The notes beneath the pieces are model-generated. The model was not told where the DNA came from and made no database searches. It was given only the letters and a program-made list of their open reading frames with translations. A stretch of 64,000 bases of DNA, from positions 14,190,469 to 14,254,468 of the forward strand of contig NC_088112.1 of NCBI RefSeq assembly GCF_036370855.1, in the 5' to 3' direction. Made by a program: the position numbers and the translations under genes. This document shows, piece after piece, positions 9,168-59,815 of the stretch (position 1 is the first letter of the stretch; each line of letters starts with the position of its first letter). This DNA is from Dromaius novaehollandiae (lineage: Eukaryota > Chordata > Aves > Casuariiformes > Dromaiidae).

Positions 9168-9672
9168 CGGGGCACCGGGCCCTGCTCGCCCACCCCCCAC
9201 GTCCAGCCCCGGTGCACGGGGTCCTGCTGCCCCCCACGACCGGCTCTCCCGTGCGCTGGGCCCCGGTGCACCGGGCCCTGCTTGCTCCCTTTCCGCTTGC
9301 ATCAGGCCCTGCCCGTGCATCCGCCACCATGCACCGGTGCACCGGGCCTGCCCGCCCCCTTTCCCCGGGGCACCAGCCCTGCCTCCTTCCGCGGTGCACC
9401 GGGCCCTGCCAGCCTTTTTCCCAGTGCACCGGGCCCTGCCAGCCTTTTTCCCGGTGCACCGACCCTGCCTGTCCCCTTTTCTCGGTGGACCAGGTCCTGA
9501 CCCCTTCTCGGTGCACCGGCTCTGCCTGCCCCGGTGTACCGGGCCCTGCCCGCCCCCCTTCCCCGGTGCATCGGGTTTTACCACCGTGCACCGGGCCCTG
9601 CCCGCCCCCCTCTCCGGTACACCGGGCCCTGCCCGCCCCCTTCCCCCGGTGCACCGGGCCCTGCCCGCCCCG
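9168..9672. repeat. GC-rich minisatellite, ~30 bp unit
   Basis: About 16-18 imperfect tandem copies of a unit built around CGGTGCACCGGGCCCTGCC followed by a C-rich spacer (CGCCCCCTTCCC or AGCCTTTTTCC). The core GGTGCACC is self-complementary. Units vary from about 22 to 35 bp through changes in the spacer. The array sits inside the CpG island and ends next to the GGGCTC hexamer run. Confidence 0.85.
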
Positions 9673-26077: not shown

Positions 26078-26127
26078 GCCCGGGGAAGGCCTCTCCCATG
26101 CTAGTCCTGCTGTGGGGCCTGGAGGGG

Positions 26128-30989: not shown

Positions 30990-33900
30990 CTCATTCCCCC
31001 TCCCTGGAGGGGGCTGCTGGCGCAGGTAGCGTGGCAGCCCCCTCCCTCCGCGCTGTGTCCCCACCTCCCACATGCGCACGGGCAGAGCCACGTGAACGCG
31101 CCTGGCTGCACCCACACCAGCAGGCATGCAGCACACCGCCATCGGGGCCGCACACGCATGTGCACGCATGTGCACGCAGGAGCACTCATGTGCATGCATG
31201 CACACACAGCCTGGCGGTGGCATCCTGCCCCTCGCTGGGGTGGCCGGGGTGCCCATCGCCTGCTACGGACCCGCTAACCCACCCCCAGGGGTGCAACAGC
31301 TCAGCTCTCCGCGGCCACAGGCACCCTGGCATGCACGGCCCCTCCACAAATGGGCAAAGTGTTTGGGGCTTTTTGGCTCCCAGAAGCAGCTCCTGGGACG
31401 GCTCGTGGGTCTGTGGGTGCTGACCTCGGTCTGGTGCTGGGGGGACAGGGCCCCTCACAAGGGTTTTCCTGGGAATACTCTGCCCCGTGGCTCACCTGCT
31501 CCTGGCTTCCGCAGCAGCTGTGGGGCTGGGAAGCAACAGCACGGTTTGCAGGGCAGCGCAGCGGGGAGTGTGCGGGGGCCACGGCTGAGGCTGGCCCCGC
31601 TCCCGCACCTGGCTGAGAAAGGTGAGGGGCTTGCAGCGGCTGCTCCATGGCCACGCTGCATTCACACGTGGCCTCCCGTGTGATCTGCAGGAGCGCACCG
31701 CAGGCGCCTGCGGCAGCTGAGCAGAAAGGCCAGGCTCCAGAGTGGATGTGGTGCTGGCAAACGGAAAGCAAAGGTGTAACCCTGAGAAGAGAGGAGTCCC
31801 CCATGGCTGGGCCCTGAGCATCCCCATGCTCCCTGGTCTGGCAGCACGTGGGTCCCTGCCTGCGCCCCGCCAGCCTTGGGGACACATTCCCTAGATGCAC
31901 CCAGCAGCAGGACATGGGTGCAGCTGGCTAGCCTTGGGTGCAGCCTGGCTGGTCCAGCTTCCAGTGGAGCACAAGAGCAGTGTGGCTAGTGGCCATCCCT
32001 GTGGGCATTGTAAACACCATACACTCACTGTGGGTATAACATACCCAAAACACACCTCAAAGCGGTTAATGTTGTTATGAGCCTGAGAGGGTTTGGCTCC
32101 CCTTCTCCTCACTGCCAGCCACAGACTTTAACCGTGCCATGGCTGGGCTATTCAAAGGTGCCCTCCAAAGCAAAGGCCTGCCCTGTAGGATGGCTGGTTT
32201 TTAGAAAATTGTGGTTACCCAGAGGAGCAGGTCTAGCTGAATGATTTTTGATCACCTATTGCAACTAGATGCTGCTGTTTCAGAAGAAGCAAAGCCCTTC
32301 CTACCTTTCCTCTGTGCCATTTGTGGCAACAAGGCAGGTACTCTTCATTTCTTCTTTCTCTTTTCCCAATGGTTTGTTTCAGCAGCTCAGTTGGTGCTGA
32401 TGAAGTAAAAGCCCTGGCTGCATTAATGACATACAAATGTGCTGTAGTGAGGTAAGTGGGAGAGGAATGTAAAGCGGTTGGTGACTTGGGCTTGGGATGG
32501 AGCCGTGATACAGTGAGTCAGAGGAGCTTGTTAGAGGCTTTGAAAACCAGAAGCGCTGTGGAAGTGCAGAGTGTTCCTTCGGGCACAGATGTGCGAGGGC
32601 CAGGCTCACGGTGGCTGCAGTGCACACCGCTGGGAGCCCGGGCGGTTCGTGTTAATCAGGGAGTGTCAAGCATCATGCTTCTTAAATAGTCTCTGTTCCT
32701 GGGTTGTCATGGATTCAGCTCTGGCTGGTGGTGTTTGCAACAGGCTCAGGGGCCGTATCTTGTCTTGGCTTAGGCGCTGCTCTTCACAGGCCACTTATCA
32801 TGTGGAAGGAGCCATGTGTGGCCAGGCAACCTGTGCCAGGGGCCTGGCTGCCAGTCCCTTGCCTTCCCAGGGCATCAGCTGCCCCTTTGCCTGGGTTTGC
32901 CAGCAGATTCATGACTGGGGTGGTCACCTTCTTGCCCTCGCAAGCAGGTGAGCTGGTGGAGGATGTCTGGCTGGGCTGCCAGGTCTCTTTCAGATGTTTC
33001 TTTTGGTGGTGCCATGGAGAGTGTGAAGACTGATCCGAGGAAACGCGCAGTGAGCTCCTTCAGCTCCTTCCCCGCTGCAGGCCTGCAGCTCACGCTCCAT
33101 TTGCACAGCCCTTCCCCTCTGCGTGTGTCATGGTGATGCGCTCCAACAAGCAGGGAGAAGACGTTTGTAATGAGTAACACTCACCCAGCGCCTGCGAAAA
33201 GCAGCTCCGGGGGAGAGAGGGGTGGTGAGCTCTGATTTACGGTTCAGTGCACCCAGCCAGACGCACGCTGAACGCATCTGGCGGGGCCACACTCCTGCCA
33301 CCGCCGGCAGTGCTGGCGCAGGGGTTGGTGGGGGTGAGCAAAGGGACTGAGAGCTCACATGGCTCCCTTTGCAATGCAGCAAGGATCCTCAGCTGCTGGG
33401 ATTAATGCCCTGGGTGCATCGGGCCATATTACAGCCTCAGAGACAATAACGTGGGCTGTGCCTGCAGAAGGGCAGGGCAGCTGCCAGGGGCCTTACCGTG
33501 GCTCTGAGTTTATTCTTGGGGGCCTGCAATAACAACTGCATTTTGATGTTCTTGCACAGGCACATGAGCAAGAGACAATAATAAGGCATTTTATCATAAA
33601 GATGACCAAGAAGGGATTTATAGGTGAGAGCGGTTTCATCCCTGTTCTGTAAGAGGTGGGTGGTTTACAGGCAGGGGAGCAGAGAGCAGCTGCCCGGCTG
33701 GGCAGGGCATGACACTGCCTCTTGCATGCTGCCTGTCAGCATGGGTCACTGCCCTGCTGTACTGCTGTCAGCTCACCACTTATCTGTCTCATGGTAGGGT
33801 TGGAAATGGGAGCAGGGAAAGCCCGGTGAGCTCGGGCAGCACCAAGCATGGGGGGGCTGGCCCAGGTTGGGTAATGGGTGCTGCTGATCATTAGCAACAG

Positions 33901-36800
33901 GTTCTGACCTGGGCATTGCCCCTGGATTCCCGCTATCTGGCACAGGCATGGGGAGGAGTGAAGCTTCTTCCTGCCTCAGCCTGTGGCAGAGAACTCAGAG
34001 GATGCTAGTCACGGGGCAAGGGCTTCTGCATTTGTTGCTGGCTTGAAAGGCTGGGAAGGGACATCACAAAGACCCTGCAAGAACCAAAGGTGTTAATGCC
34101 TGAAGGAAGCTGAGGAGACCTTGGTTCATGGTCAGCACCAGGCTTCAGACAGGAGAGTTGGTGTGTCCTGGAACATGATCAGCCTGTGGAAATCACCTGG
34201 CCCAAAATGTCTCATCAGTTTGAGCAAAGCAATTGAATTGCAAGGACAGGTTCTGGTGGGTTTTCCACCTCCACAAGGCGTGGGATTGATGGACTGGCCC
34301 CAGATGTCAGTACTGGGGACTGGGTGATGTGCTGGATAGCTGATGCCTCCACCCCATGCTGGGGTACTGGGTAAGCTCAGGCACCTTGTACCATGTGAGA
34401 CTTCAACTTTCACTCTTCCTTGCCTGATCCTGCAGGGTATCAATGCCCAGGTCTGTGTGACAGGAAAGCCCGTTAGCCGTGGGGGGTTCCATGGGCGCCC
34501 CACCACTGGGCACGGGGTTCTGCATGGCACTGAAGACTACATCACCAGCACGCACTGCATGGACACATCGGCCTGAGCCCAGGCTCCCCGGCAAGACCTT
34601 TGTGGTGCAGGTAAGTGCCCAGCCCGGCTGCAGCTCTGGGGATGGTGCTTTCTTGGGATCTTTCTGCCTCTACTTTCCAGGAGACCTTTCACAGTCAGCC
34701 TATCTCCAGGTAACATCCAGTGTTTGTACAAATCCGGTCTCTGTGGGTTTTGGTGCAGAGGGATGCATAGCGCCAGCTAGCACTCCTTAGGGCAGTTTTT
34801 CAGACCTGCTGCACACAGAGGTTAGGCTGCAGGATTGCTCACACTGCACAGGCATTTCCAGGATTTCTCTCTAGCCATTGAGTCTAAAAATGCTTGTAAC
34901 ACAGAAGCTGCTGCTGGCCCTTGTCTGCAGTAGGACTGAGTGAAGAGGTGGCAGGATGCGGGGAGCTCTGCCAGGCTGGGTGGAATGAGCTGACACCAGT
35001 GACAACTTTGTATTTCTATCATCTCCCAACTCAGCCACAGGCGAGCTCTGATGTTACCTGCTGTGAAGATCCTACCTGAGAGTGCAGCCCCCATCTCCTC
35101 TGGGTGCCTTGTGGGTCCTGTCTCACTCCGGTTGGCTGAAGCGAGTCAGGTCCCTGCCTCAGCCTGAGGGCTGGGAGCTCAGGGGGACACCCAGGGTGCT
35201 GGCCCTGCCTTTCCCTTCTTCTCCTGGGCAGGGCTTTCCTTCCTGCAGCCTGGGGCCTGTTCCCAAACTGTGGTAAGGTGCTTCCCCCTGCTGTATTTCC
35301 AAGAGCTCCTGCTCTCCGCCAGGCACTGCTGCCCTGATAACTGCTGAGCCACCATGGGTATTGCCACAAATGGCTGTCAGCGTTTCCTGCATTTCCCTCT
35401 CTTTGGAGGAACAAATAAGCTGGGATCTGGGTGGCTGACATCTGCTCCTGGCACTCTGCAGCTGGGCTACCTGGTGGTGCGATGCTTTCCTCCAGTCGCT
35501 TGCTCCCCAGCACAGCTCTCTGCAATGGAGAAGGAGGCTTTGCACTGAGCTTGCACCCAGAGCTGGTGCCTCCAGGAATTGCCCTGCCTTTGCTCATCCT
35601 TTCCCTTTCCCAAGGTCCCTCTGCTTTGCTGATGTTGCAGAGAATGAGAAGGATGAAGGCCTTGGCTACTTATGTTTATAATTTTGCTTTGTTTGGGAGA
35701 TGTTTTTGCAGTGTCAGGAACCAGCTTTGCTTTTAGGACCTGTAGCAAGCCAGCAAACGCTTCGGGGCATACACTGCAAAACAGCTGTTCCTATGTGAAA
35801 AGCCAAGCTACCTGCATAGCCCTTCCTTCTGCTCGTACCTCTGCAGCTGGCTGCACACACGTGAGGTGCGGGAGGGCTGCCCGGGTTGTACCTGGATGCT
35901 GCATGGTGCCCACCAAGGGACTGTGTTTCTCACTGGGTCTGTTTGCTAACTGAGAACAGCTCTTAGACCCTGAACAACATGAGGATTTGGGGCATCACAT
36001 CCAGCTTCTCTGGAGGTGGTAGAGAAGGGCAGAGCTGGGAGACTTTGTCCCATGGGGCCTGCTTTTCACAGTGCTGTAACTGGCTAAGAAGGTCTCAGTC
36101 CTGCCAGATCCGAGCCGCCATCCAGCCAAAACATTTGCCAGGGACTAGATAGGGGGGTTTCTGCTTCTGTTTCTCAGCTCAGGCTCCTGTATCGGGACCT
36201 GTTTTCAGAGCAGTGGGCAGTTTACAGTATCTGTCCCCATGACCTCCCTCTCCTGCTTGGAGGGAGCCCTGTGCTCTGCATTGTTGTAGGGTTTTGGTGC
36301 AGTGGGGCACTACAGCATGGGGTACCTGCACCAGCATGGACGCCACTGCCTCTGAGCTAGGGAGACCAACAAGGCTATTTGCAGTCTCAGCAGGACTAAC
36401 CCCAAGGAGATGGAAGATCACAAGCAGGTGAGGTGAGACCAGCCCATGCACCTAGCAGGTGAGGGTGGGTGCTTGTCTCCAAAACATTCATAAAGGGGGG
36501 CTGCGCCCATCTCCTGCAGAGCCCAGCTCCGAGGGCAGTGCTGAATGATGCCAGGCAAGCCCAACACATGGCTGTCCTTCTCACTCCAGGGCCATGGCAC
36601 AAGAGCTGGATTCCCAAAAGCAGAGCACTGTCCTGGAGCGGTCCTGTGACATCCTGATCCCCGCTGCTACTGAGAAACAGCTAATGAGGGAGAATGCACA
36701 ATAGATGCAAGCGAAGGTACAGCCGACACCATGCCATTCATACCCTGTTGGTCATTCAATGCGCAAGGACCTGCACTGAAGTGCACAAGGGACAGGAGGC
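30990..36800. other. Noncoding intergenic sequence left of the satellite
   Basis: No supported gene or RNA. GC content falls after about 32 kb compared with the gene-rich part. Frames are short and unremarkable. Small symmetric motifs occur, for example GCAATTGAATTGC near 34230-34242, without further support. Confidence 0.6.
31150..31212. repeat. Alternating purine-pyrimidine CA/TG-type repeat
   Basis: Imperfect tandem GCATGTGCAC units followed by TGCATGCATGCACACACA. Alternating purine-pyrimidine sequence of this kind favours Z-DNA in vitro. Confidence 0.8.
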
Positions 36801-36807
36801 CAGCTTT

Positions 36808-39800
36808 ACCTGGGCCTCTGCGCTTTCTCTCTCTCCTAACCCTAACCCTTACCCTAAACCTAAATCTTGCCTCAGGCGGGGCCCAAACCGCGGCCCAGCA
36901 GCCGCAATCGTGGCCCTGACCAGAAGACTGCCCTGCCATCAGTCTTGCTGCAGCCCCACCTTTTCTTTGGCATGCATTTGCAGCCCCCACTCCACCTTGG
37001 CCTCTAGGTTTTCTCTATCTTCTAATCCTAAACGTAACCCTTACCCTAAAGCTACCTAACCCTAACCCTAACCCTGAATCTCGCCTCAGGCGGGGCCCAA
37101 ACCGCAGCCTGACAGCCCCATTGGTGGCCCTGACAAAATAATTGCCCTGCACTCAGCCTTGCTGCAGCCCCACCTTTCCTTTGGCATGCCCTTTGCAGCC
37201 CCACTCCACCTGGGCCTCTGCACTTTCTCTCTCTCCTAACCCTAACCCTAACCCTAACCCTGACCCTAACGCTAAATCTCGTCTCAGGCGGGGCCCAAAA
37301 CGCAGCCCAGCAGCCCCATTGGTGGCCCTGACAAAAAAGTTGTCCTGCACTCAGCCTTGCTGCAGCCCCACCTTTCCTTTGGCATGCCCTTTGCAGCCCC
37401 ACTCCACCTGGGCCTCTGCGCTTTCTCTCTCTCCTAACCCTAACCCTAATCCTAAGCCTAGATCTCGCGTCAGGCTGGCCCAAAACGCAGACTAGCAGCA
37501 CCATTCGTGGCCCTGACAAAAAAGTTGCCCTGCACTCAGCCTTGCTGCAGCCCCACCTTTCCTTTGGCATGCCCTTTGCAGCCCCACTCCACCTGGGCCT
37601 CTGCGCTTTCTCTCTCTCCTAACCCTAACCCTAACCCTAAATCTCGCCTCAGGCGGGGCCCAAACCGCAGCCCAGCAGCCCCATTCGAGGCCCTGACAAA
37701 AGAGTTGTCCTGCACTCAGCCTTGCTGCAGCCCCACCTTTCCTTTGGCATGCCCTTTGCAGCCCCACTCCACCTGGGCCTCTGCGCTTTCTCTCTCTTCT
37801 AACCCTAACCCTAACCCTAACCCTAAATCTCGCCTCAGGCGGGGCCCAAACCGCAGACCAGCAGCCCCATTGGTGGCCCTGACAAAAGAGTTGCCCTGCA
37901 CTCAGCCTTGCTGCAGCCCCACCTTTCCTTTGGCATGCCCTTTGCAGCCCCACTCCACCTGGGCCTCTGCGCTTTCTCTCTCTTCTAACCCTAACCCTAA
38001 CCCTAACCCTAAATCTCGCCTCAGGCGGGGCCCAAACCGCAGATCAGCAGCCCCATTGGTGGCCCTGACAAAAAAGGTGCCCTGCCATCAGTCTTGCTGC
38101 AGCCCCACCTTTCCTTTGGCATGCCCTTTGCAGCCCCACTCCACCTGGGCCTCTGCGCTTTCTCTCTCTCCTAACCCTAACCCTACACCTAACCGTAACC
38201 CTAGAGCTCGCCTCAGGCGGGGCCCGAACCGCAGACTAGCAGCACCTTTCGTGGGCCTGACAAAAAAGTTGTCCTGCACTCAGCCTTGCTGCAGCCCCAC
38301 CTTTCCTTTGGCATGCCCTTTGCAGCCCCACTCCACCTGGGCCTCTGCGCTTTCTCTCTCTCCTAACCCTAACCCTACACCTAACCGTAACCCTAGAGCT
38401 CGCCTCAGGCGGGGCCCGAACCGCAGACTAGCAGCACCATTGGTGGCCCTGACAAAAAAGGTGCCCTGCACTCAGCCTTGCTGCAGCCCCACCTTTCCTT
38501 TGGCATGCCCTTTGCAGCCCCACTCCACCTGGGCCTCTGCGCTTTCTCTCTCTCCTAACCGTAACCGTAACCGTAACCCTAACCCTAACCGTAACCCTAA
38601 CCCTAACCCTAAGCCTAACCCTAAATCTCGCCTCAGGCGGGGCCCAAACCGCAGCCCGACAGCCCCATTGGTGGCCCTGACAAAAAAGTTGCCCTGCCAT
38701 CAGTCTTGCTGCAGCCCCACCTTTCCTTTGGCATGCCCTTTGCAGCCCCACTCCACCTGGGCCTCTGCGCTTTCTCTCTCTCCTAACCCTAACCCTAACC
38801 CTAAATCTCGCCTCAGGCAGGGCCCGAACTGCAGCCCAGCAGCCCCATTCGAGGCCCTGACAAAATAATTGCCCTGCACTCAGCCTTGCTGCAGCCCCAC
38901 CTTTCCTTTGGCATGCCCTTTGCAGCCCCACTGCACCTGGGCCTCTGCGCTTTCTCTCTCTCCTAACCCTAACCCTGACCCTAACCCTAAATCTCGCCTC
39001 AGGCGGGGCCCGAACCGCAGCCCAGCAGCACCATTGGTGGCCCTGACAAAAAAGTTGTCCTGCACTCAGCCTTGCTGCAGCCCCACCTTTCCTTTGGCAT
39101 GCCCTTTGCAGCCCCACTCCACCTGGGCCTCTGCGCTTTCTCTCTCTCCTAACCCTAACCCTAACCCTAACCCTGACCCTAACCCTAAATCTCGCCTCAG
39201 GCGGGGCCCGAACCGCAGCCCAGCAGCACCATTGGTGGCCCTGACAAAAATGTTGTCCTGCACTCAGCCTTGCTGCAGCCCCACCTTTCCTCTGGCATGC
39301 CCTTTGCAGCCCCACTCCACCTGGGCCTCTGCGCTTTCTCTCTCTCCTAACCGTAACCGTAACCCTAACCCTAACCCTAACCGTAACCCTAACCCTAACC
39401 CTAACCCTAACCCTAAATCTCACCTCAGGCGGGACCCGCGCCGCAGCCCGGTAGCCCCACTCGAGGCCCTGACAAAAAAGTTGCCCTGCCATCAGTCTTG
39501 CTGCAGCCCCACCTTTCCTTTGGCATGCCCTTTGCAGCCCCACTGCACCTGGGCCTCTGCGCTTTCTCTCTCTCCTAACCCTAACCCTAACCCTAACCCT
39601 AAATCTCGCCTCAGGCGGGGCCCAAACCGCAGCCCGACAGCCCCATTGGAGGCCCTGACAAAAAAGTTGCCCTGCCATCAGTCTTGCTGCAGCCCCACCT
39701 TTCCTTTGGCATGCCCTTTGCAGCCCCACTCCACCTGGGACCCTGCGCTTTCTCTCTCTCCTAACCCTAACCCTAACCCTAAATCTCACCTCAGGCAGGG

Positions 39801-42800
39801 CCCGAACCGCAGCCCATCAGCCCCATTCGAGGCCCTGACAAAATAATTGCCCTGCACTCAGCCTTGCTGCAGCCCCACCTTTCCTTTGGCATGCCCTTTG
39901 CAGCCCCACTCCACCTGGGCCTCTGCGCTTTCTCTCTCTCCTAACCCTAGCCCTAACCCTGACCCTAACCCTAAATCTCGTCTCAGGCGGGGCCCGAACC
40001 GCAGCCCGGCAGCACCATTGGTGGCCCTGACAAAAGAGTTGCCCTGCACTCAGCCTTGCTGCAGCCCCACCTTTCCTTTGGCATGCCCTTTGCAGCCCCA
40101 CTCCACCTGGGCCTCTGCGCTTTCTCTCTCTCCTAACCCTAGCCCTAACCCTGACCCTAACCCTAAATCTCGTCTCAGGCGGGGCCCGAACCGCAGCCCA
40201 GCAGCCCCATTGGTGGCCCTGACAAAAAAGGTGCCCTGCACTCAGCCTTGCTGCAGCCCCACCTTTCCTTTGGCATGCCCTTTGCAGCCCCACTCCACCT
40301 GGGCCTCTGCGCTTTCTCTCTCTTCTAACCCTAACCCTAACCCTAACCCTAAATCTCGCCTCAGGCGGGGCCCAAACCGCAGATCAGCAGCCCCATTGGT
40401 GGCCCTGACAAAAAAGGTGCCCTGCACTCAGTCTTGCTGCAGCCCCACCTTTCCTTTGGCATGCCCTTTGCAGCCCCACTCCACCTGGGCCTCTGCGCTT
40501 TCTCTCTCTCCTAACCCTAACCCTAACCCTAACCCTGACCCTAACCCTAAATCTCATCTCAGGCGGGGCCCGAACCGCAGCCCAGCAGCACCATTGGTGG
40601 CCCTGACAAAAAAGGTGCCCTGCACTCAGCCTTGCTGCAGCCCCACCTTTCCTCTGGCATGCCCTTTGCAGCCCCACTCCACCTGGGCCTCTGCGCTTTC
40701 TCTCTCTCCTAACCGTAACCGTAACCGTAACCCTAACCCTAACCGTAACCCTAACCCTAACCCTAAGCCTAACCCTAAATCTCGCCTCAGGCGGGACCCG
40801 AGCCGCAGCCCGGTAGCCCCACTCGAGGCCCTGACAAAAAAGTTGCCCTGCCATCAGTCTTGCTGCAGCCCCACCTTTCCTTTGGCATGCCCTTTGCAGC
40901 CCCACTCCACCTGGGCCTCTGCGCTTTCTCTCTCTCCTAACCCTAACCCTAACCCTAACCCTAAATCTCGCCTCAGGCGGGGCCCAAACCGCAGCCCGAC
41001 AGCCCCATTGGTGGCCCTGACAAAAAAGTTGCCCTGCCATCAGTCTTGCTGCAGCCCCACCTTTCCTCTGGCATGCCCTTTGCAGCCCCACTCCACCTGG
41101 GACCCTGCGCTTTCTCTCTCTCCTAACCCTAACCCTAACCCTAAATCTCGCCTCAGGCAGGGCCCGAACTGCAGCCCAGCAGCCCCATTCGAGGCCCTGA
41201 CAAAAAAGGTGCCCTGCACTCAGCCTTGCTGCAGCCCCACCTTTCCTTTGGCATGCCCTTTGCAGCCCCACTCCACCTGGGCCTCTGCGCTTTCTCTCTC
41301 TCCTAACCCTAACCCTAACCCTAACCCTGACCCTAACCCTAAATCTCGTCTCAGGCGGGGCCCGAACCGCAGCCCAGCAGCCCCATTGGTGGCCCTGACA
41401 AAAAAGTTGCCCTGCACTCAGCCTTGCTGCAGCCCCACCTTTCCTCTGGCATGCCCTTTGCAGCCCCACTCCACCTGGGCCTCTGCGCTTTCTCTCTCTC
41501 CTAACCGTAACCGTAACCCTAACCCTAACCCTAACCCTAACCCTAAATCTCGCCTCAGGCGGGACCCGAGCCGCAGCCCGGTAGCCCCACTCGAGGCCCT
41601 GACAAAAGAGTTGCCCTGCCATCAGTCTTGCTGCAGCCCCACCTTTCCTTTGGCATGCCCTTTGCAGCCCCACTGCACCTGGGCCTCTGCGCTTTCTCTC
41701 TCTCCTAACCCTAACCCTAAGCCTAAATCTCACCTCAGGCAGGGCCCGAACCGCAGCCCATCAGCCCCATTCGAGGCCCTGACAAAATAATTGCCCTGCA
41801 CTCAGCCTTGCTGCAGCCCCACCTTTCCTTTGGCATGCCCTTTGCAGCCCCACTCCACCTGGGCCTCTGCGCTTTCTCTCTCTCCTAACCCTAGCCCTAA
41901 CCCTGACCCTAACCCTAAATCTCGTCTCAGGCGGGGCCCGAACCGCAGCCCAGCAGCCCCATTCGAGGCCCTGACAAAAGAGTTGCCCTGCACTCAGCCT
42001 TGCTGCAGCCCCACCTTTCCTTTGGCATGCCCTTTGCAGCCCCACTCCACCTGGGCCTCTGCGCTTTCTCTCTCTCCTAACCCTAACCCTAACCCTAAAT
42101 CTCGCGTCAGGCTGGCCCAAAACGCAGCCCGGCAGCCCCATGCGTGGCCCTGGCAAAAAAGTTGCCCTGCACTCAGCCTTGCTGCAGCCCCACCTTTCCT
42201 TTGGCATGCCCTTTGCAGCCCCACTCCACCTGGGCCTCTGCGCTTTCTCTCTCTCCTAACCCTAACCCTAACCCTAAATCTCGCCTCAGGCGGGGCCCAA
42301 ACCGCAGCCCAGCAGCCCCATTGGTGGTCCTGACAAAAAAGTTGTCCTGCACTCAGCCTTGCTGCAGCCCCACCTTTCCTTTGGCATGCCCTTTGCAGCC
42401 CCACTCCACCTGGGCCTCTGCGCTTTCTCTCTCTCCTAACCCTAACCCTAAAGCCTAGGCCTAGATCTCGCATCAGGCAGGCCCAAAACGCAGCCCAGCA
42501 GCCCCATTGGTGGCCCTGACAAAAGAGTTGCCCTGCACTCAGCCTTGCTGCAGCCCCACCTTTCCTCTGGCATGCCCTTTGCAGCCCCACTCCACCTGGG
42601 CCTCTGCGCTTTCTCTCTCTCCTAACCCTAACCCTAACCCTAACCCTAAATCTCGCCTCAGGCGGGGCCCGAACCGCAGCCCAGCAGCACCATTGGTGGC
42701 CCTGACAAAAAAGTTGTCCTGCACTCAGCCTTGCTGCAGCCCCACCTTTCCTTTGGCATGCCCTTTGCAGCCCCACTCCACCTGGGCCTCTGCGCTTTCT

Positions 42801-45800
42801 CTCTCTCCTAACCCTAACCCTAACCCTAACCCTAAATCTCGCCTCAGGCGGGGCCCAAACCGCAGCCCAGCAGCCCCATTGGTGGCCCTGACAAAAAAGT
42901 TGCCCTGCACTCAGCCTTGCTGCAGCCCCACCTTTCCTCTGGCATGCCCTTTGCAGCCCCACTCCACCTGGGCCTCTGCGCTTTCTCTCTCTCCTAACTC
43001 TAACCCTAAATCTCGCCTCAGGCGGGGCCCGAACCGCAGCCCAGCAGCCCCATTGGTGGCCCTGACAAAAAAGTTGCCCTGCCATCAGCCTTGCTGCAGC
43101 CCCACCTTTCCTTTGGCATGCCCTTTGTAGCCCCACTCCACCTGGGCCTCTGCGCTTTCTCTCTCTCCTAAACCTAACCCTAAATCTCGCCTCAGGCGGG
43201 GCCCGAACCGCAGCCCAGCAGCACCATTGGTGGCCCTGACAAAAAAGGTGCCCTGCACTCAGCCTTGCTGCAGCCCCACCTTTCCTTTGGCATGCCTTTT
43301 GCAGCCCCACTCCACCTGGGCCTCTGCGCTTTCTCTCTCTCCTAACCCTAACCCTAACCGTAACCCTGACCCTAACCCTAAATCTCGTCTCAGGCGGGGC
43401 CCAAACCGCAGCCCAGCAGCCCCACTGGTGGCCCTGACAAAAAAGTTGCCCTGCACTCAGTCTTGCTGCAGCCCCACCTTTCCTTTGGCATGCCCTTTGC
43501 AGCCCCACTCCACCTGGGCCTCTGCACTTTCTCTCTCTCCTAACCCTAACCCTAACCCTAAATCTCACCTCAGGCAGGGCTCGAACCGCAGCCCAGCAGC
43601 CGCATTCGTGGCCCCGACAAAATCATTGCCCTGCACTCAGCCTTGCTGCAGCCCCACCTTTCCTTTAGCATGCCCTTTGCAGCCCGACTCCACCTGGGCC
43701 TCTGCGCTTTCTCTCTCTCCTAACCCTAACCCTAACCCTAACCCTAACCCTAACCCTAACCCTAACCCTAAATCTCGCCTCAGGCGGGACCCGAGCCGCA
43801 GCCTGGTAGCCCCATTCGATGCCCTGACAATAAAGGTGCCCTGCACTCAGCCTTGCTGCAGCCCCACCTTTCCTTTGGCATGCCCTTTGCAGCCCCACTC
43901 CACCTGGGCCTCTGCGCTTTCTCTCTCTCCTAACCGTAACCGTAACCGTAACCCTAACCCTAACCGTAACCCTAACCCTAACCCTAACCCTAACCCTAAA
44001 TCTCGCCTCAGGCGGGACCCGAGCCGCAGCCCGGCAGCCCCATTCGTGGCCCTGAAGAAAAAGGTGCCCTGCACTCAGTCTTGCTGCAGCCCCACCTTTC
44101 CTCTGGCATGCCCTTTGCAGCCCCACTCCACCTGGGCCTCTGCGCTTTCTCTCTCTCCTAACCCTAACCCTAACCCTAAATCTAGCCTCAGGCGGGGCTC
44201 AAACCGCAGCCCAGCAGCCCCATTGGTGGCCCTGACAAAAGAGTTGCCCTGCACTCAGCCTTGCTGCAGCCCCACCTTTCCTCTGGCATGCCCTTTGCAG
44301 CCCCACTCCACCTGGGCCTCTGCGCTTTCTCTCTCTCCTAAACCTAACCCTAACTCTAACCCTAAATCTCGCGTCAGGAGGGCCCAAAACGCAGCCTGGC
44401 AGCCCCATGCGTGGCCCTGGCAAAAAAGTTGCCCTGCACTCAGCCTTGCTGCAGCCCCACCTTTCCTTTGGCATGCCCTTTGCAGCCCCACTCCACCTGG
44501 GCCTCTGCGCTTTCTCTCTCTCCTAACCCTAACCCTAACCCTAACCCTAAATCTCGCCTCAGGCTGGCCCAAAACGCAGCCCGGCAGCCCAATTCGTGGC
44601 CCTGGCAAAAAAGTTGTCCTGCACTCAGCCTTGCTGCAGCCCCACCTTTCCTTTGGCATGCCCTTTGCAGCCCCACTGCACCTGGGCCTCTGCGCTTTCT
44701 CTCTCTCCTAACCCTAACCCTAACCCTAACCCTAACCCTAACCCTAAATCTCGTCTCAGGCGGGACCCAAACCGCAGCCCAGCAGCCCCACTGGTGGCCC
44801 TGACAAAAAAGATGCCCTGCACTCAGTCTTGCTGCAGCACCACCTTTCCTTTGGCATGCCCTTTGCAGCCCCACTCCACCTGGGCCTCTGCACTTTCTCT
44901 CTCTCCTAACCCTGACCCTAACCCTAAATCTCACCTCAGGCAGGGCTCGAACCGCAGCCCAGCAGCCGCATTCGTGGCCCCGACAAAAGAGTTGCCCTGC
45001 ACTCAGCCTTGCTGCAGCCCCACCTTTCCTTTGGCATGCCTTTTGCAGCCCCACTCCACCTGGGCCTCTGCGCTTTCTCTCTCTCCTAACCGTAACCCTA
45101 AAGCCTAGGCCTAGATCTCGCATCAGGCAGGCCCAAACCGCAGCCCAGCAGCCCCATTGGTGGCCCTGACAAAAAAGTTGTCCTGCACTCAGTCTTGCTG
45201 CAGCCCCACCTTTCCTTTGGCATGCCCTTTGCAGCCCCACTCCACCTGGGCCTCTGCGCTTTCTCTCTCTCCTAACCCTAACCCTAAAGCCTAAGCCTAT
45301 ATCTCGCGTCAGGCAGGCCCAAAACGCAGCCCAGCAGCCCCATTGGTGGCCCTGACAAAAGAGTTGCCCTGCACTCAGTCTTGCTGCAGCCCCACCTTTC
45401 CTTTGGCATGCCCTTTGCAGCCCCACTCCACCTGGGCCTCTGCGCTTTCTCTCTCTCCTAAACCTAACCCTAACGCTAACCCTAAATCTCGCCTCAGGCG
45501 GGGCCCAAACCGCAGCCCAGCAGCCCCATTGGTGGCCCTGGCAAAAGAGTTGCCCTGCACTCAGCCTTGCTGCAGCCCCACCTTTCCTTTAGCATGCCCT
45601 TTGCAGCCCCACTCCACCTGGGCCTCTGCGCTTTCTCTCTCTCCTAACCCTAACCCTAACCCTAACCCTAACCGTAACCGTAACCCTAACCCTAACCCTA
45701 AATCTCGCCTCAGGCGGGACCCGAGCCGCAGCCTGGTAGCCCCATTCGGTGCCCTGACAATAAAGGTGCCCTGCACTCAGCCTTGCTGCAGCCCCACCTT

Positions 45801-48800
45801 TCCTTTGGCATGCCTTTTGCAGCCCCACTGCACCTGGGCCTCTGCGCTTTCTCTCTCTCCTAACCCTAACCCTAACCCTAACCCTAACCCTAACCCTAAC
45901 CCTAACCCTAACCCTAAATCTCGCCTCAGGCTGGCCCGAACCGCAGCCCGACAGCCCCATTCGTGGCCCTGACAAAAGAGTTGCCCTGCACTCAGCCTTG
46001 CTGCAGCCCCACCTTTCCTTTGGCATGCCCTTTGCAGCCCCACTCCACCTGGGCCTCTGCGCTTTCTCTCTCTCCTAACCCTAACCCTAACCCTAAATCT
46101 CGTCTCAGGCGGGGCCCAAACCGCAGCCCAGCAGCCCCATTGGTGGCCCTGACAAAAGAGTTGTCCTGCACTCAGCCTTGCTGCAGCCCCACCTTTCCTT
46201 TGGCATGCCCTTTGCAGCCCCACTCCACCTGGGCCTCTGCGCTTTCTCTCTCTCCTAACCCTAACCCTAACCCTAACCCTGACCCTAATCCTAAATCTCG
46301 TCTCAGGCGGGGCCCGAACCGCAACCCGGCAGCACCATTGGTGGCCCTGACAAAAAAGGTGCCCTGCACTCAGCCTTGCTGCAGCCCCACCTTTCCTTTG
46401 GCATGCCCTTTGTAGCCCCACTCCACCTGGGCCTCTGCGCTTTCTCTCTCTCCTAACCCTAACCCTAAGCCTAACCCTGACCCTAACCCTAAATCTCGTC
46501 TCAGGCGGGGCCCAAACCGCAGACCAGCAGCCCCATTGGTGGCCCTGACAAAAAAGGTGCCCTGCACTCAGTCTTGCTGCAGCCCCACCTTTCCTTTGGC
46601 ATGCCCTTTGCAGCCCCACTCCACCTGGGCCTCTGCGCTTTCTCTCTCTCCTAACCCTAACCCTAACCCTAACCCTGACCCTAACCCTAAATCTCGCCTC
46701 AGGCGGGGCCCGAACCGCAGCCCAGCAGCACCATTGGTGGCCCTGACAAAAAAGTTGTCCTGCACTCAGCCTTGCTGCAGCCCCACCTTTCCTTTGGCAT
46801 GCCCTTTGCAGCCCCACTCCACCTGGGCCTCTGCGCTTTCTCTCTCTCCTAACCCTAACCCTAACCCTAACCCTAACCCTAACCCTAACCCTGACCCTAA
46901 CCCTAAATCTCGTCTCAGGTGGGGCCCGAACCGCTGCCCGGCAGCCCCATTCGTGGCCCTGAAGAAAAAGGTGCCCTGCCATCAGTCTTGCTGCAGCCCC
47001 ACCTTTCCTCTGGCATGCCCTTTGCAGCCCCACTCCACCTGGGCCTCTGCGCTTTCTCTCTCTCCTAACCCTAACCCTAACCCTAAATCTAGCCTCAGGC
47101 GGGGCCCAAACCGCAGCCCAGCAGCCCCATTGGTGGTCCTGACAAAAAAGTTGTCCTGCACTCAGCCTTGCTGCAGCCCCACCTTTCCTTTGGCATGCCC
47201 TTTGCAGCCCCACTCCACCTGGGCCTCTGCGCTTTCTCTCTCTCCTAACCCTAACCCTAAAGCCTAGGCCTAGATCTCGCATCAGGCAGGCCCAAAACGC
47301 AGCCCAGCAGCCCCATTGGTGGCCCTGACAAAAGAGTTGCCCTGCACTCAGCCTTGCTGCAGCCCCACCTTTCCTCTGGCATGCCCTTTGCAGCCCCACT
47401 CCACCTGGGCCTCTGCGCTTTCTCTCTCTCCTAAACCTAACCCTAACTCTAACCCTAAATCTCGCGTCAGGAGGGCCCAAAACGCAGCCCGGCAGCCCCA
47501 TGCGTGGCCCTGGCAAAAAAGTTGCCCTGCACTCAGCCTTGCTGCAGCCCCACCTTTCCTTTGGCATGCCCTTTGCAGCCCCACTCCACCTGGGCCTCTG
47601 CGCTTTCTCTCTCTCCTAACCCTAACCCTAACCCTAACCCTAAATCTCGCCTCAGGCGGGGCCCGAACCGCAGCCCAGCAGCACCATTGGTGGCCCTGAC
47701 AAAAAAGTTGTCCTGCACTCAGCCTTGCTGCAGCCCCACCTTTCCTTTGGCATGCCCTTTGCAGCCCCACTCCACCTGGGCCTCTGCGCTTTCTCTCTCT
47801 CCTAAACCTAACCCTAACCCTAACCCTAACCGTAACTCTAACCCTAAATCTCGCCTCAGGCGGGGCCCGAACCGCAGCCCAGCAGCACCATTGGTGGCCC
47901 TGACAAAAAAGGTGCCCTGCACTCAGCCTTGCTGCAGCCCCACCTTTCCTTTGGCATGCCTTTTGCAGCCCCACTCCACCTGGGCCTCTGCGCTTTCTCT
48001 CTCTCCTAACCCTAACCCTAACCCTAACCCTAAATCTCGCCTCAGGCTGGCCCAAAACGCAGCCCGGCAGCCCAATTCGTGGCCCTGGCAAAAAAGTTGT
48101 CCTGCACTCAGCCTTGCTGCAGCCCCACCTTTCCTTTGGCATGCCCTTTGCAGCCCCACTGCACCTGGGCCTCTGCGCTTTCTCTCTCTCCTAACCCTAA
48201 CCCTAAGCCTAACCCTGACCCTAACCCTAAATCTCGTCTCAGGCGGGACCCAAACCGCAGCCCAGCAGCCCCACTGGTGGCCCTGACAAAAAAGATGCCC
48301 TGCACTCAGTCTTGCTGCAGCACCACCTTTCCTTTGGCATGCCCTTTGCAGCCCCACTCCACCTGGGCCTCTGCACTTTCTCTCTCTCCTAACCCTGACC
48401 CTAACCCTAAATCTCACCTCAGGCAGGGCTCGAACCGCAGCCCAGCAGCCGCATTCGTGGCCCCGACAAAATCATTGCCCTGCACTCAGCCTTGCTGCAG
48501 CCCCACCTTTCCTTTGGCATGCCTTTTGCAGCCCCACTCCACCTGGGCCTCTGCGCTTTCTCTCTCTCCTAACCCTAACCCTAAAGCCTAGGCCTAGATC
48601 TCGCATCAGGCAGGCCCAAACCGCAGCCCAGCAGCCCCATTGGTGGCCCTGACAATAAAGGTGCCCTGCACTCAGTCTTGCTGCAGCCCCACCTTTCCTT
48701 TGGCATGCCCTTTGCAGCCCCACTCCACCTGGGCCTCTGCGCTTTCTCTCTCTCCTAAACCTAACCCTAACCCTAACCCTAAATCTCGCCTCAGGCGGGG

Positions 48801-50030
48801 CCCAAACCGCAGCCCAGCAGCCCCATTGGTGGCCCTGGCAAAAGAGTTGCCCTGCACTCAGCCTTGCTGCAGCCCCACCTTTCCTTTAGCATGCCCTTTG
48901 CAGCCCCACTCCACCTGGGCCTCTGCGCTTTCTCTCTCTCCTAACCCTAACCCTAACCCTAACCCTAACCGTAACCGTAACCCTAACCCTAACCCTAAAT
49001 CTCGCGTCAGGAGGGCCCAAAACGCAGCCCAGCAGCCCCATTCGGTGCCCTGACAATAAAGGTGCCCTGCACTCAGCCTTGCTGCAGCCCCACCTTTCCT
49101 TTGGCATGCCCTTTGCAGCCCCACTCCACCTGGGCCTCTGCACTTTCTCTCTCTCCTAACCCTAACCCTAACCCTAACCCTAACCCTAACCCTAACCCTA
49201 ACCCTAAATCTCGTCTCAGGCGGGGCCCGAACCGCAGCCCAGCAGCCCCATTCGTGGCCCTGACAAAAAAGTTGTCCTGCACTCAGCCTTGCTGCAGCCC
49301 CACCTTTCCTTTGGCATGCCCTTTGCAGCCCCACTCCACCTGGGCCTCTGCACTTTCTCTCTCTCCTAACCCTAACCCTAACCCTAACCCTAACCCTAAC
49401 CCTAACCCTAACCCTAAATCTCGCCTCAGGCTGGCCCGAACCGCAGCCCGACAGCCCCATTCGTGGCCCTGACAAAAGAGTTGCCCTGCACTCAGCCTTG
49501 CTGCAGCCCCACCTTTCCTTTGGCATGCCCTTTGCAGCCCCACTCCACCTGGGCCTCTGCGTTTTCTCTCTCTCCTAACCCTAACCCTAACCCTAAATCT
49601 CGTCTCAGGCGGGGCCCAAACCGCAGACCAGCAGCCCCATTGGTGGCCCTGACAAAAGAGTTGTCCTGCACTCAGCCTTGCTGCAGCCCCACCTTTCCTT
49701 TGGCATGCCCTTTGCAGCCCCACTCCACCTGGGCCTCTGCGCTTTCTCTCTCTCCTAACCCTAACCCTAACCCTAACCCTGACCCTAATCCTAAATCTCG
49801 TCTCAGGCGGGGCCCGAACCGCAACCCGGCAGCACCATTGGTGGCCCTGACAAAAAAGGTGCCCTGCACTCAGCCTTGCTGCAGCCCCACCTTTCCTTTG
49901 GCATGCCCTTTGCAGCCCCACTCCACCTGGGCCTCTGCGCTTTCTCTCTCTCCTAACCCTTACCTTAATCCTAGCTCTTTACTTAACCCTCGCCCATATC
50001 TTATCGGCCCATAACCTAGCCCTCTCTTAA
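36808..50030. repeat. 13-kb satellite of ~193-bp monomers with embedded telomeric repeats
   Basis: About 68 head-to-tail monomers, counted by the recurring CTTGCTGCAGC core (first near 36945, last near 49878), with a mean spacing of 192.7 bp. Each monomer has about 160 bp of shared sequence (CTGCAGCCCCACCTTTCC, GGCATGCCCTTTGCAGCC, CCACCTGGGCCTCTG, then CTTTCTCTCTCTCC), a run of roughly 2 to 9 CCCTAA hexamers, a CTCAGGCGGGGCC block and CCATTGGTGGCCCTGAC. Spacing varies mainly in steps of 6 (174-228 bp), mostly because hexamer number changes. Variant hexamers (CCGTAA, CCTGAC, CCTAAG) recur in particular monomers. At least three diverged monomer types exist; one carries CCTAGGCCTAGATCTCGC and another GCGTCAGG with AAAACGC. 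The first two monomers and the last ~60 bp are degraded. Open frames of up to 647 codons run through it on both strands only because the monomer length is a multiple of 3. Confidence 0.97.
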
Positions 50031-53000
50031 GAGGTAGTTATAATCTTTTTATTTAGCTCTTTTGCCTCCTCTGGTATCCTCAATCTTCATTCCTCTGTCA
50101 GACACTCACCTGGGGACAATGTTGCTGATGTCTCTAAAGGTACCGGCTGTCACACTTTCAACCCTCTGCAGATCATAGGTAGATCCAAGTGAGCTGAGCA
50201 GGGGCCTGCTGCAGACATCAGCTTCCTCCCTTGAGCATGAGGTCTATGTACCAAAGGGACAGGTCATGCTGACACCTGAGACTCTGTCACAGCCAAGGGC
50301 TTTTGCAGCAGTAACTTTTAACGGTCCTGTGCAGAAAAGGTCCTCTGAGTGTTTGCTAATGCTGAACTTGAACAGCTCTGGTTGGGAGGCGAGAGCTCAG
50401 GCCCTTCCACTAGAAATGGCCTGGTGTGGGGAATCCCAGCAGCAGGGAAAGCTGCCTGTCACTGGCTTTCTTTCTTTTTTTTTTTGTCTCATGTCAGCTC
50501 TGCTCTACTTGTTCTCTCAGATCACTGCAGAAGCTGACAATGGCCCCAGTACACCAGTAGCACATGAGATATTCCTGCAAAGAAACATCCTTGTCATCCT
50601 GGTATGTTCATCCCCATTTGCAAAGGGAGATGGCAGGTTTGTGGGCCATTAGGGCCAAATGCTGTTCTCAGCTGCATTGTTGAAGATCCAGCCTCGCTCC
50701 ACGGGGATCTGCAGTGTTAATGCTGCTGTCTCGGCTGACCTCTTTCCCTGCCTTGCCCCCAGGCCCTAAGCACATATCGGGAGTCCAGCTTGCTGTTTTT
50801 CCTCCTGTACCCACCTGCTGGGCTGGGCTGGCTGCAGCAATGGTAGATTATGGGGCTCCTGGCCAGCACCAGGCTGTTGCGTGGATGCTGGTGGGCCAAC
50901 AGCAAACGTTGCTGCCTCGTTTGGACTGTCAGAGCAGCTGGCATCTCTGCTCAGAGACAGTAGAGAGCCACCACGGTGCTAGGATTCACACCAGGACCCT
51001 CAGGACTGTGCCTGAGAGGAGAGCCATAGGGTATGGGGAGGGAGGCAAGTCAGATGGGGAGAGACCCCCACATCAGTCATGGGGCTCAGATCACCCTAAG
51101 CAGCAAGTCTGAAGCATGCACTTGCCCTTGGCAGGACATGTATGTGAACGCAGGTGGCATGATCATATTCTTCCTCCAGTAGTTGAAGAGCCTGAACCAC
51201 GTTCACTATGGCCGCCTCAGCTTCAGGCATGAGCAGGAGTCCAGCTGCCACCACCTGCTCCACCTGAGCAGTGCTTGAGCAAGGCCAGGGAGAGATCTGC
51301 ATTGTTCCGACCCCATCTCCAGGCCCACGTCGTGCAAGTGCCTACCAAGGGCTGTCCTAGCTCACTTGTTTCATGCTCCCAGGTGCTCCCTTCTGCTGCC
51401 TGATGCTGAGGGCTGAGCCAGCAGCACATGCGGAGCCCCCCGTGCTGTCATCCCGCTGGGGAAGGGATGCCCAGTGAGGTGGTGCAGCCCCACTGTCCCA
51501 GTGGGCTGCTCTCTGTGGGGCACTGGGCACTGTGGGGAGTCCCCAGGGCTTGGGCCAGCTGCAGAGATGCCCAGAGGTGGCAGGCCAGGCTCTGTGCTTA
51601 TGCAAACCCCGAGAGCCCTGGGGATGTGACAGATGGGGTCTGGCAGGTGGAGATGGTCAGCCATGCAGGTAGGGCAGGAGCCCCTGCACTGTGCATGCTC
51701 CTGCCTTAGTCCCAGCAAGGGGCAGCAAGTTTGGGGGAAGGTTGTGGAGGGGCTTGGGTATGCACAGTGTCAGGTTGCTGTGGGTAAGTCGCATGCCTTC
51801 CCATCAGTGCAGAGCCAGGGCAGTGCCGGCTGTGGGTGGAAATGCAGGAACGGAAGGTCCTCAGAGAGGGCCATCATGCGTTCAGGACTGGCCTACACCA
51901 TGGAGCAGTGGGCCAAGGGACCTCTCAGGGCTCCCCGCCTCACCCCATCTCTGCTGTGGGGCCCCTTACCATGCTGCAGCAGCTCTGTGCTGTATTTGAG
52001 GGGTGCCCACCCCATCATCACTCCCTGCGGGTGAACCCAAGGCCTAGATTCGTGTCCTTCATGGTGGTAGTGTCTGCCCTCGGATTAAAGCCGCTTGCTA
52101 AGCCAGTGTCCCTTGTTGCTCCTGGCAAGGAGGAACACGTGGGTCTCTGTCGTTCCATCTGCCTGAACGTGCACGTCCCATTGCCAGGGTTGCTCAGCTG
52201 AGCCCAGGCACATCAGGTGGTGCTGCCACTGCCAGTGTGGAGTGTCCAAGCCACCTTGGAGGAGCAGTGTGAGCAGTGTGCGTGGGGCCCAGCCGTGAGG
52301 GCAGGCCAGGTCCCCAGCAGACTAGCATGGGGCAGCAGCAGGACAATGCATTCAAACTCACCCGCACACAGCTCCAGGTCTTCCCAAACAGTCCCCTTGT
52401 TCATTTATAGCGAAAGTGGCCTTTTACCCTCTGGGTGCTCAGGGACCTGGTGCGGTGCCTGCGTGCATGGCAAGGCGTGCACCCTCCTCTCCGGTTCCTC
52501 AGATCCCCCTTTCTTCCTACACATGCTGACTTCACAGCTCCTCTGCTTCTCTAGCAAACTATGGACATGGCTGCAAAGCACAGCCTGAGCCTGGGCCTGA
52601 GACCTGCTGTCTGGCCGTGTGCTCTGGAGAGGGTGTTCACTGTGTAGGACAAGGCCAGCCTCTCCTGCTGAGCAAGCGTCCGTCAGGGCTTCTGTCCCAG
52701 GCATTGCTGTCAGCCGCATGGTGAGGGTCACCATCCTGCTGCGCAGAGCCAGGTGGCTCAGGGTGCCCAGGACATCACATGCTGCACAGAGGGGACACCG
52801 TGGTCTCTATAAATGGTTTATCTGAGCATGTCCTCTCCCTGGCCCCTGGCTCTCAGCTGCCCTGGGCGGCAGGCTGTTTTCCTCTGCACCCCCTCTGCCC
52901 CAGCCCCCTTGCAGCCTCCTGAGCTCTGAAGGAAGCTGTGCTGGTGGTGGTGTGGGTCTGCTTGTCCACCTCCTTCATGGCTGGGGGCACCCAGGTGGCA

Positions 53001-54833: not shown

Positions 54834-58860
<4,027 letters not shown>

Positions 58861-58904: not shown

Positions 58905-59815
58905 CTGTCGCCATCCCCTCGGATCCCATCCTGATCCCACCCCCTCCCCATATCCCATCTCTTCCCCATCGCATCTGTCCTGATCCTATCCCTGTCCCCA
59001 TCCCATCCCATCCTGTCCTGATCCCATCCCATCCTGATCCCATCCCGTCCTGATCCCATCCCCTCCCCATTATATCCCCTCCCCATCACGTCTTGTCCCC
59101 ATCCCTTCCCATCCTGTCCTGATCCCAGCTCATCCTGATCCCATCCCCTCCCCTCCCCATTATATCCCCTCCCCATCACGTCTTGTCCCCATCCCTTCCC
59201 ATCCTGTCCTGGTCCCATCCCATCCCCTCCCCATTATATCCCCTCCCCATCACATCTTGTCTCCATCCCTTCCTGATCCCATCCCATCCTGATCCTCCAT
59301 CCCCGTCACTCCTGGTCCCATTCCACCTTATCCCCAACCCATCCATCCATATCTCATTCCCTTCCCTCCCTGTCCTAATCCCATCCCCATCCCTTCCCAA
59401 TCCCATCCCACCCAGATCCTCCATCCCCATCAATCCTGGTCTCTTCTCACCTTGTTCCCAACCTATCCATCTGTATTACATTGCCATCCCACCCTGTCCT
59501 ATTCCCATCCCTTCCCATCACATTTTGTTTCCATCCCATCCCATCCTGTCCTGTCCTCATCCTGTTATGGTCCCATTCCTTCTGCATTCCATCCCATCCT
59601 GATCTGGTCCCATTCTGTCCTGATCCCATCCTCCACATCCCACCCTGTCCCCATCCCATCCCATCCTAATGCTATCCCATCCTGTCTCCATACCATCCCA
59701 CCCTGCCCCATTCCTCACCATCATCTCTCAACCCCATCCCACACTGTCCCCATCTCATCCCATCTTGTCCCCCCCTGACCCCATGCCCTGACCCCATCCT
59801 TGCCTTGCCCCCATC
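58905..59815. repeat. Pyrimidine-rich minisatellite (CATCC/TGATCCCATCC)
   Basis: About 900 bp of imperfect tandem CATCCC, TGATCCCATCC and related units, almost pure C/T on the plus strand. A longer ~60-bp block starting TCCCCATTATATCCCCTCC recurs near 59064, 59154 and 59230, so there is a nested level of duplication. It separates the SNCB CpG island from the EIF4E1B start. Confidence 0.9.

Follow-up and report, generated by a model that had tools for sequence, protein, structure and literature searches.

A satellite with a telomeric run in every unit, apparently housed in an intron of a dead GLUD1 paralogue of Dromaius novaehollandiae

Results

We analysed a 64,000-nucleotide stretch of the Dromaius novaehollandiae genome (hereafter the window; positions 14,190,469–14,254,468 of contig NC_088112.1, here called C15), in which a satellite array occupies window positions 36,808–49,970 on the + strand, near 14.23 Mb of the 23.8-Mb contig. 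Using Tandem Repeats Finder together with two anchor scans of the window, we located 68 head-to-tail units, the full copies spanning 36,835–49,951, all on a single strand and with CCCTAA on the + strand throughout. The units were 174–228 bp long (mean 192.9 bp over all 68), and outside the telomeric run they were nearly rigid, 54 of them having a core of 157 bp and the other 14 one of 156 bp; a 1-bp deletion was found in 14 cores. The run itself varied between 17 and 71 bp, a single 6-bp ladder fitting 62 of the 68 runs, and held one to nine perfect CCCTAA hexamers, which were present in every unit (68/68). These measurements agreed well with an earlier note on this DNA, made from its letters alone, which had described about 68 monomers with ~160 bp of unique sequence and roughly two to nine hexamers, both figures being close to ours, in a single orientation, and which had read them as a composite satellite and not as an ordinary interstitial telomere block. 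Telomeric runs made up 2,455 of the 13,117 array bases, 261 of the 270 CCCTAA hexamers in the window lay inside the array, and CCCTAACCCTAA was found 164 times in the array and nowhere else in the window, with a base-composition expectation of 0.004 for the window.

Each unit consists of three parts, namely a conserved half of ~77 bp, the (CCCTAA)n run and a variable half of ~80 bp, with the conserved half holding GGCATGCC between two direct repeats GCAGCCCCAC. At its left edge (36,808–36,834, + strand), as read by eye, the array begins with the final 27 bp of a core (ACCTGGGCC...TCTCTCT). After the end of the last unit at 49,951, the right edge carries a degenerate telomeric tail of ~60 bp (49,962–50,023, + strand), its score of 17 being reached by none of 1000 shuffles (shuffle maximum 16) and also by 2 of 2,248 other 90-bp stretches of the window. 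A fusion-type interstitial telomere, with a head-to-head TTAGGG/CCCTAA junction, was rejected, as all 68 runs have one orientation and TTAGGGTTAGGG occurs nowhere in the whole window. The earlier note had also pointed to dozens of G-quadruplex-capable tracts, and indeed 37 such motifs (2.8/kb) were found on the − strand of the array versus 0.69/kb elsewhere; however, only 32 of the 68 runs have the four C3 tracts that a G-quadruplex within one run would take. The motif YTAGGGTTR, which we take to be a TRF-type double-strand site, occurred at least once in every unit, with 244 instances in the array and one in the rest of the window.

Open frames of up to 647 amino acids cross the array; many units are 162+6n bp long, a multiple of three, so that some frames can stay open over many of them. 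Without a coding test, we did not take the array as a coding repeat or gene. Searching the rest of the window for a source of the core with blastn gave nothing better than chance (best E 0.02), Rfam gave no match in the window at gathering thresholds, a CR1-type terminal-repeat pattern used as a hint to the taxon had no match, and the conserved-half pattern had no exact match in either a viral or a prokaryote collection.

When the frames adjacent to the array were compared with PDB sequences, decayed exons of glutamate dehydrogenase were found on both sides of it, with one of the frames giving no match. The Pfam matches of these relic frames stayed below cut-off (PF02812, E 0.0004; PF00208, E 0.01), and a genome search with PF00208 found the intact GLUD1 on contig C6 alone, missing the relic. 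Nine exon remnants lie in order on the + strand from 32,372 to 52,662, with the array between the fifth and the sixth. Upstream of the array these are exons a (32,372–32,455, residues about 93–120), b (33,563–33,646, residues about 139–166), c (34,436–34,561, residues about 191–233), d (36,281–36,427, residues about 248–296, with an in-frame stop) and e (36,621–36,716, CDILIPAATEKQL..., also with an in-frame stop); read against the GLUD1 sequence, exon e seems to open in a different frame, presumably through a frame shift. Downstream of the array follow exons f (50,521–50,598, AEADNGPSTP...), g (51,132–51,284, in-frame stops), h (51,846–51,929) and i (52,540–52,662, in-frame stops). The relic intron between exons e and f (36,717–50,520, + strand, with splice borders at 36,716/36,717 and 50,520/50,521) still has a recognisable donor, AAG/GTACAG, and acceptor, TCTCAG/ATC, and 95% of its 13,804 bp is array, whereas the matching intron of intact GLUD1 on C6 has ~130 bp.

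The intact GLUD1 lies on the − strand of C6 at 16.38–16.40 Mb and matches the nine query peptides with 81–100% identity and no stops, compared with 42–75% identity in the relic and stops in its exons d, e, g and i. All nine query peptides were colinear between the two, and for the array-bearing intron, where the comparison was made in detail, the position was the same as in the C6 gene. Judged from these alignments, the array thus sits within an intron of a dead GLUD1 paralogue, a relic gene that the earlier note had missed.

The genes around this relic fit the earlier note's placement of the array between two neuronal genes, with a GPRIN1-type coding open reading frame on one side (24,836–26,215, − strand; Pfam GRIN_C domain, E 5.2e-44) and the first coding exon of SNCB on the other (58,305–58,430, − strand; Pfam Synuclein). 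SNCB and the GLUD relic are arranged tail-to-tail, like the GLUD1/synuclein pair on C6, in which 36 kb separate the matched exons and the synuclein gene would by its position be SNCG. Beside GPRIN1 we also observed cadherin-domain exons (12,265–18,577, + strand; Pfam Cadherin, one of two matches below cut-off), which from their position we take to be CDHR2. A degenerate minisatellite of ATCCC/CCCATCC type, ~0.8 kb long (58,983–59,797), lies upstream of the first coding exon of SNCB, and another, GC-rich minisatellite (9,334–9,671) has units around CCGGTGCACCGG. Since an ancestral gene block SNC-GLUD-SHLD-GPRIN has been described (PMC10451939), which predicts a GLUD gene between GPRIN1 and SNCB, the relic is apparently a dead whole-genome-duplication copy of GLUD1, as far as its gene neighbourhood tells, and the GPRIN1–SNCB interval would then preserve a recognisable corpse of the GLUD1 copy expected from the synuclein paralogon.

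Scanning the 1.468-Gb assembly with a 26-base pattern from the conserved half, allowing at most one mismatch, we found 6,288 matches (3,119 forward and 3,169 reverse), with none for a reversed-pattern control; at 193 bp per unit this corresponds to ~1.2 Mb. On contig C8, where units 91–95% identical to nearly the whole of a 186-base query were found, an array of more than 190 kb runs in one orientation, reaching from 19.6836 Mb to at least 19.8758 Mb of 43.5 Mb and being absent at 19.890 Mb; its stretch 19.820–19.868 Mb lay outside the fetched sequence, although the genome search has matches there. Around and inside this array, 12,500 of 160,000 bases read N (C8:19.66–19.82 Mb), which may be gaps or withheld sequence. 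The largest array placed on C6 starts at 25.899 Mb of 50 Mb and extends for 0.5–0.6 Mb as judged by sampling, with eight of eight samples positive between 25.92 and 26.40 Mb and a negative one at 26.50 Mb, and C6 has smaller clusters near 27.16–27.18, 27.86, 34.26–34.32, 35.60 and 39.01–39.03 Mb. Contigs C7, C3 and C33 carry a few units each, and C2 carries degenerate copies, single or few, at 104.1, 132.5, 140.7, 146.5, 147.9 and 151.2 Mb. The mean unit was 192–197 bp, and CCCTAA was present inside all 639 measurable intervals of C8 and all 36 of a 10-kb fetch from C6, with the old C2 copies being degenerate. By these matches the monomer, which recurs on seven contigs or more, is part of a dispersed and probably old satellite family, which disposes of a single-locus oddity, the number of loci having been queried in the earlier note.

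Exact matches to the C6 form of the pattern (2,243) and to its C8 form (608), together with C15 and the small clusters, roughly make up the forward matches. Follow-up scans of the 3,169 reverse-strand matches placed only a few units, on C7, and because the others remain unplaced, another large array bearing reverse-strand copies probably exists. The arrays that could be placed are internal to their contigs (C15, 14.23 of 23.8 Mb; C8, 19.7 of 43.5 Mb; C6, 25.9–26.5 of 50 Mb), and the earlier note's suggestion of an old subtelomeric satellite moved inside a chromosome was thereby left unsupported, though it may still hold, as the contig ends are incomplete, with only four of 20 contig starts having telomere repeats (four others read N and 12 had neither; C33 also shows telomere repeats), and the reverse-strand matches are mostly unplaced.

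Several further features of the family were noted on the way. At C2:147.94 Mb, two old units stand head-to-head via an inverted telomeric stretch (TTAGGGTTAGG...CCTAACTCTAACCC), the sole inverted arrangement among the stretches read. On C8, the three top-scoring units (at 19754710, 19766292 and 19777874) are spaced by exactly 11,582 bp, which suggests a segmental duplication in that array; a higher-order repeat on C8 was rejected, as the share of identical units stayed within 15% at every lag up to 79 units. Transposable-element ends were also looked for and the idea dropped, as the C2 copies and array edges read by eye had no common ends: copies at C6 25.9 and C2 132.5 Mb start at the conserved-half start, and those of C15, C8 and C2 at 140.7, 104 and 146.5 Mb start elsewhere. 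A search with the variable half as sole query, in which 40 of 442 candidates were scored, gave 49 matches, each lying on C15 or C8.

We compared the C15 units with those of other loci by building a tree from 196 units at 13 loci, in which C8 was represented by 60 of its 236 distinct units. The 68 C15 units formed one clade, albeit with a low support of 0.455, the C8 units formed another (0.839), and the two were sisters (0.867), while units of C6 25.9, C6 27.86 and C3 formed no clades of their own. The exact matches of the 26-base pattern gave a similar picture: the C15 form had 62, all in this array, in a list sorted by mismatches, and those of the C8 form (608) and of the C6 form (2,243) were all forward, with the best 100 of each being all on C8 and all on C6, respectively. 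Consensus identity between C15 and C8 was 0.93 in both halves, and between C15 and C6 it was 0.71 in the variable and 0.89 in the conserved half, anchor columns excluded. Minor alleles of C15 were found in at least 1% of C8 units for 15 of 39, versus 8 of 66 null alleles, i.e. those unseen in C15 (p=0.003), which gives a weak hint that part of the variation may be older than the C15/C8 split, weak because the signal depends on the cut-off.

Variation within C15 was unevenly distributed along the core. Leaving out unit 1, 387 of 427 variant cells lay within the first 80 columns of the core and the other 40 within the remaining 77, and columns with at least two variants numbered 43 of 80 versus 9 of 77 (p=1e-8). 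The 36 units of C6, split without the conserved anchor, also had more variable columns in the variable half (22/65 versus 6/77, p=1e-4). In C8 the contrast was weak at best (0.032 versus 0.012 without anchor columns, 0.032 versus 0.028 with all columns), columns 40–79 being as quiet as the conserved half. Between loci, themselves found by queries that include the conserved half, this half was the more similar in 9 of 10 pairs, with C15–C8 equal at 0.93 (anchor columns excluded). A wider comparison of 105 pairs, in which the conserved half scored higher in 102, was set aside, as it contained a misplaced unit (C2 104) and two loci whose variable half was absent or truncated. Either the conserved half may bind something, or it may mutate less, or it may be homogenised better.

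Blocks of units recur within C15. Units 41–44 (44,522–45,270, + strand) are repeated 18 units away as units 59–62 (48,005–48,753) with zero to four edits, and units 13–16 recur seven units away as 20–23 with two to six edits. Of the 68 units, 65 are distinct, and there are five singleton columns. All four combinations were found in 358 of 780 site pairs, with linkage near nil beyond ~60 bp. The telomeric run co-varied with the variable half next to it (Mantel 0.33, 0/500), and no such co-variation was found across the conserved half (−0.004, 250/500). A role of the run as preferred exchange breakpoint was considered and rejected, because linkage is also gone inside the variable half at comparable distances (bins 1 and 4: 0.016, 187/500). 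Taken as a whole, the pattern in C15 reads as the signature of repeated unequal exchange together with short-tract conversion.

Discussion

We consider the C15 array to be most probably a small member, evolving on its own, of a dispersed satellite of some age, seeded in the intron of the GLUD1 duplicate and locally grown and shuffled, a reading to which we give a probability of roughly 70%. A single unit, or a block of them, akin to the C8 subfamily would have entered that intron between GPRIN1 and SNCB; given little or no selection on the intron, unequal exchange and segmental duplication would then have expanded it to 68 units. Short-tract exchange would have shuffled variants among the units, with slippage changing the telomeric runs by 6-bp steps. 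By analogy with interstitial telomeric repeats (PMC6410037), it is most likely the telomeric tract that would render the family liable to break, recombine and expand. No host function at the C15 locus is needed for this.

Several results weigh against this account. The entry into the intron is unseen and no target-site duplication is evident by eye, the support for the C15 clade itself is low (0.455), and, with C15 being sister to the C8 array and not nested in it, C8 as source is unproven. Counting C15 minor alleles by any presence on C8 gives 18/39 versus 27/66, that is, no difference. The exchange tracts cannot be tied to the telomeric run, because linkage also fades within ~60 bp in the variable half, and all but a few of the 3,169 reverse-strand matches are without location.

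The family may instead be, or derive from, a centromeric satellite, with the conserved half binding a centromere or chromatin protein and the tract binding TRF-type proteins, and with C15 as an ectopic or relic copy. The large C6 and C8 arrays could be centromeric: they are long, of single orientation and inside contigs (more than 190 kb on C8, eight of eight positive samples on C6), unit forms are locus-specific on C15, C8 and C6, the conserved half shows less variation inside the C15 and C6 arrays and greater similarity from locus to locus, and mean units of 192–197 bp are near the nucleosome repeat length. Chicken centromere cores, furthermore, are described as often holding (TTAGGG)n (PMC9974502). 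Against this, the family forms six or more separate clusters on C6 alone, from 25.9 to 39.0 Mb, unlike one centromere, and the 13-kb C15 array lies in gene-rich DNA, so that we regard a centromeric identity or descent as possible, with odds clearly below even. Somewhat more doubtful still, in our view, is that the monomer joins a probably protein-bound conserved module to a working telomere tract, a tract that would let the satellite seed interstitial sites and build chromosome-specific, perhaps centromeric, arrays; it would be kept for recruiting telomere-binding proteins or for provoking breaks and recombination, and in the dead GLUD intron we would have caught a colony of such a satellite in the act.

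Explanations confined to this locus fare worse. Local tandem expansion of intron sequence, as in the avian 'sequence stuttering' of chicken dot chromosomes, is improbable: its local origin is contradicted by the monomers shared with other contigs (6,288 genome matches), and the 23.8-Mb C15 contig is large for a dot chromosome, even though one exon-bounded intron filled to 95% by imperfect tandem repeats in a GC-rich, gene-rich region is what is described for that process (PMC12954441). We also think it quite improbable that double-strand-break repair inserted a telomeric run here which was then amplified, together with native intron sequence, at this locus alone, a reading close to one option of the earlier note, a telomere repair insertion later amplified. 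The degenerate telomeric tail at the right end of the array would suit such an event, and break repair is documented to leave short interstitial telomeric insertions, of which 31% in humans are intronic (PMC7215372). The whole core is, however, also found on C8, at 93% consensus identity, and in more diverged form on other contigs. Unless this locus was the founder of the family, the core is therefore not specific to this intron. An ordinary short interstitial telomeric sequence (ITS) from break repair, in which hexamers alone are added to a native single-copy site, was rejected on the same ground, since each run comes with a core that other contigs also carry. Local repair insertion is thus unneeded at C15, where the run came with the monomer, though a telomere repair insertion may explain the founding monomer. 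That the array is an assembly artefact, misplaced here from another chromosome or invented in its length, appears least probable of all. Repeats are hard to assemble, N bases make up 12,500 of 160,000 around the C8 array and the C15 length comes from the assembly; but all 62 exact matches listed for the conserved half fall within this array, 65 of its 68 units are distinct and its units cluster together, at the low support given above, with relic-gene sequence bordering both sides.

The C15 array bears on how telomeric signals inside chromosomes are read. Interstitial telomeric repeats are often taken as scars of fusion or break repair, but because the tract is here built into a satellite monomer on at least seven contigs, signals from telomere fluorescence in situ hybridisation (FISH) in a genome of this kind are not necessarily a sign of fusion. 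The many locus-specific arrays are material for testing telomeric tracts as drivers of satellite spread, for which the colony in the dead intron would serve as a reference under little selection.

Among known systems, short or heterochromatic ITS share with the C15 array an internal CCCTAA tract, and such tracts are described as prone to length change and recombination (PMC6410037, PMC7215372); as characterised there, ITS are hexamer runs alone, whereas each C15 run is part of a larger tandem monomer. Telomeric repeats embedded in bird tandem arrays are also reported for the chicken centromere, where (TTAGGG)n blocks lie within the 41-bp CNM satellite arrays and are not, in that description, part of each monomer (PMC9974502). 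The frog satellite PcP190 resembles the C15 unit, on its description, in having conserved and variable monomer domains, with no telomeric run mentioned in that account (PMC4201667). In the avian sequence stuttering discussed above, the likeness is an intron full of imperfect tandem repeats, the repeats being local as described there and genome-wide here (PMC12954441). A vertebrate satellite associated with telomeric sequences is known from Sparidae (Garrido-Ramos 1998, as cited in PMC4273535), the likeness being by citation only. The closest relation in form is PaB6 of the plant Prospero autumnale, a pericentromeric satellite with a 249-bp monomer, seven TTAGGG motifs and a cytotype-variable copy number (PMC4273535), and satellites with telomeric motifs in each monomer are thus, on this account, already known. 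PaB6 shares with the C15, C8 and C6 arrays the telomeric motifs in each monomer and the long head-to-tail arrangement; its motifs are described as dispersed, with two instances being dimers, and its copies as numbering 10^4–10^6 per 1C (PMC4273535), unlike the ~193-bp bird unit with one contiguous, length-variable run in a fixed place and at least ~6,300 pattern matches. A survey of the literature on satellites and telomeric repeats, with subscription papers mostly outside its scope, found no bird satellite of such form. What seems to be new here is the combination of features: a nucleosome-sized monomer, present on several contigs of a bird genome, in which one unbroken telomeric run of variable length keeps a fixed position.

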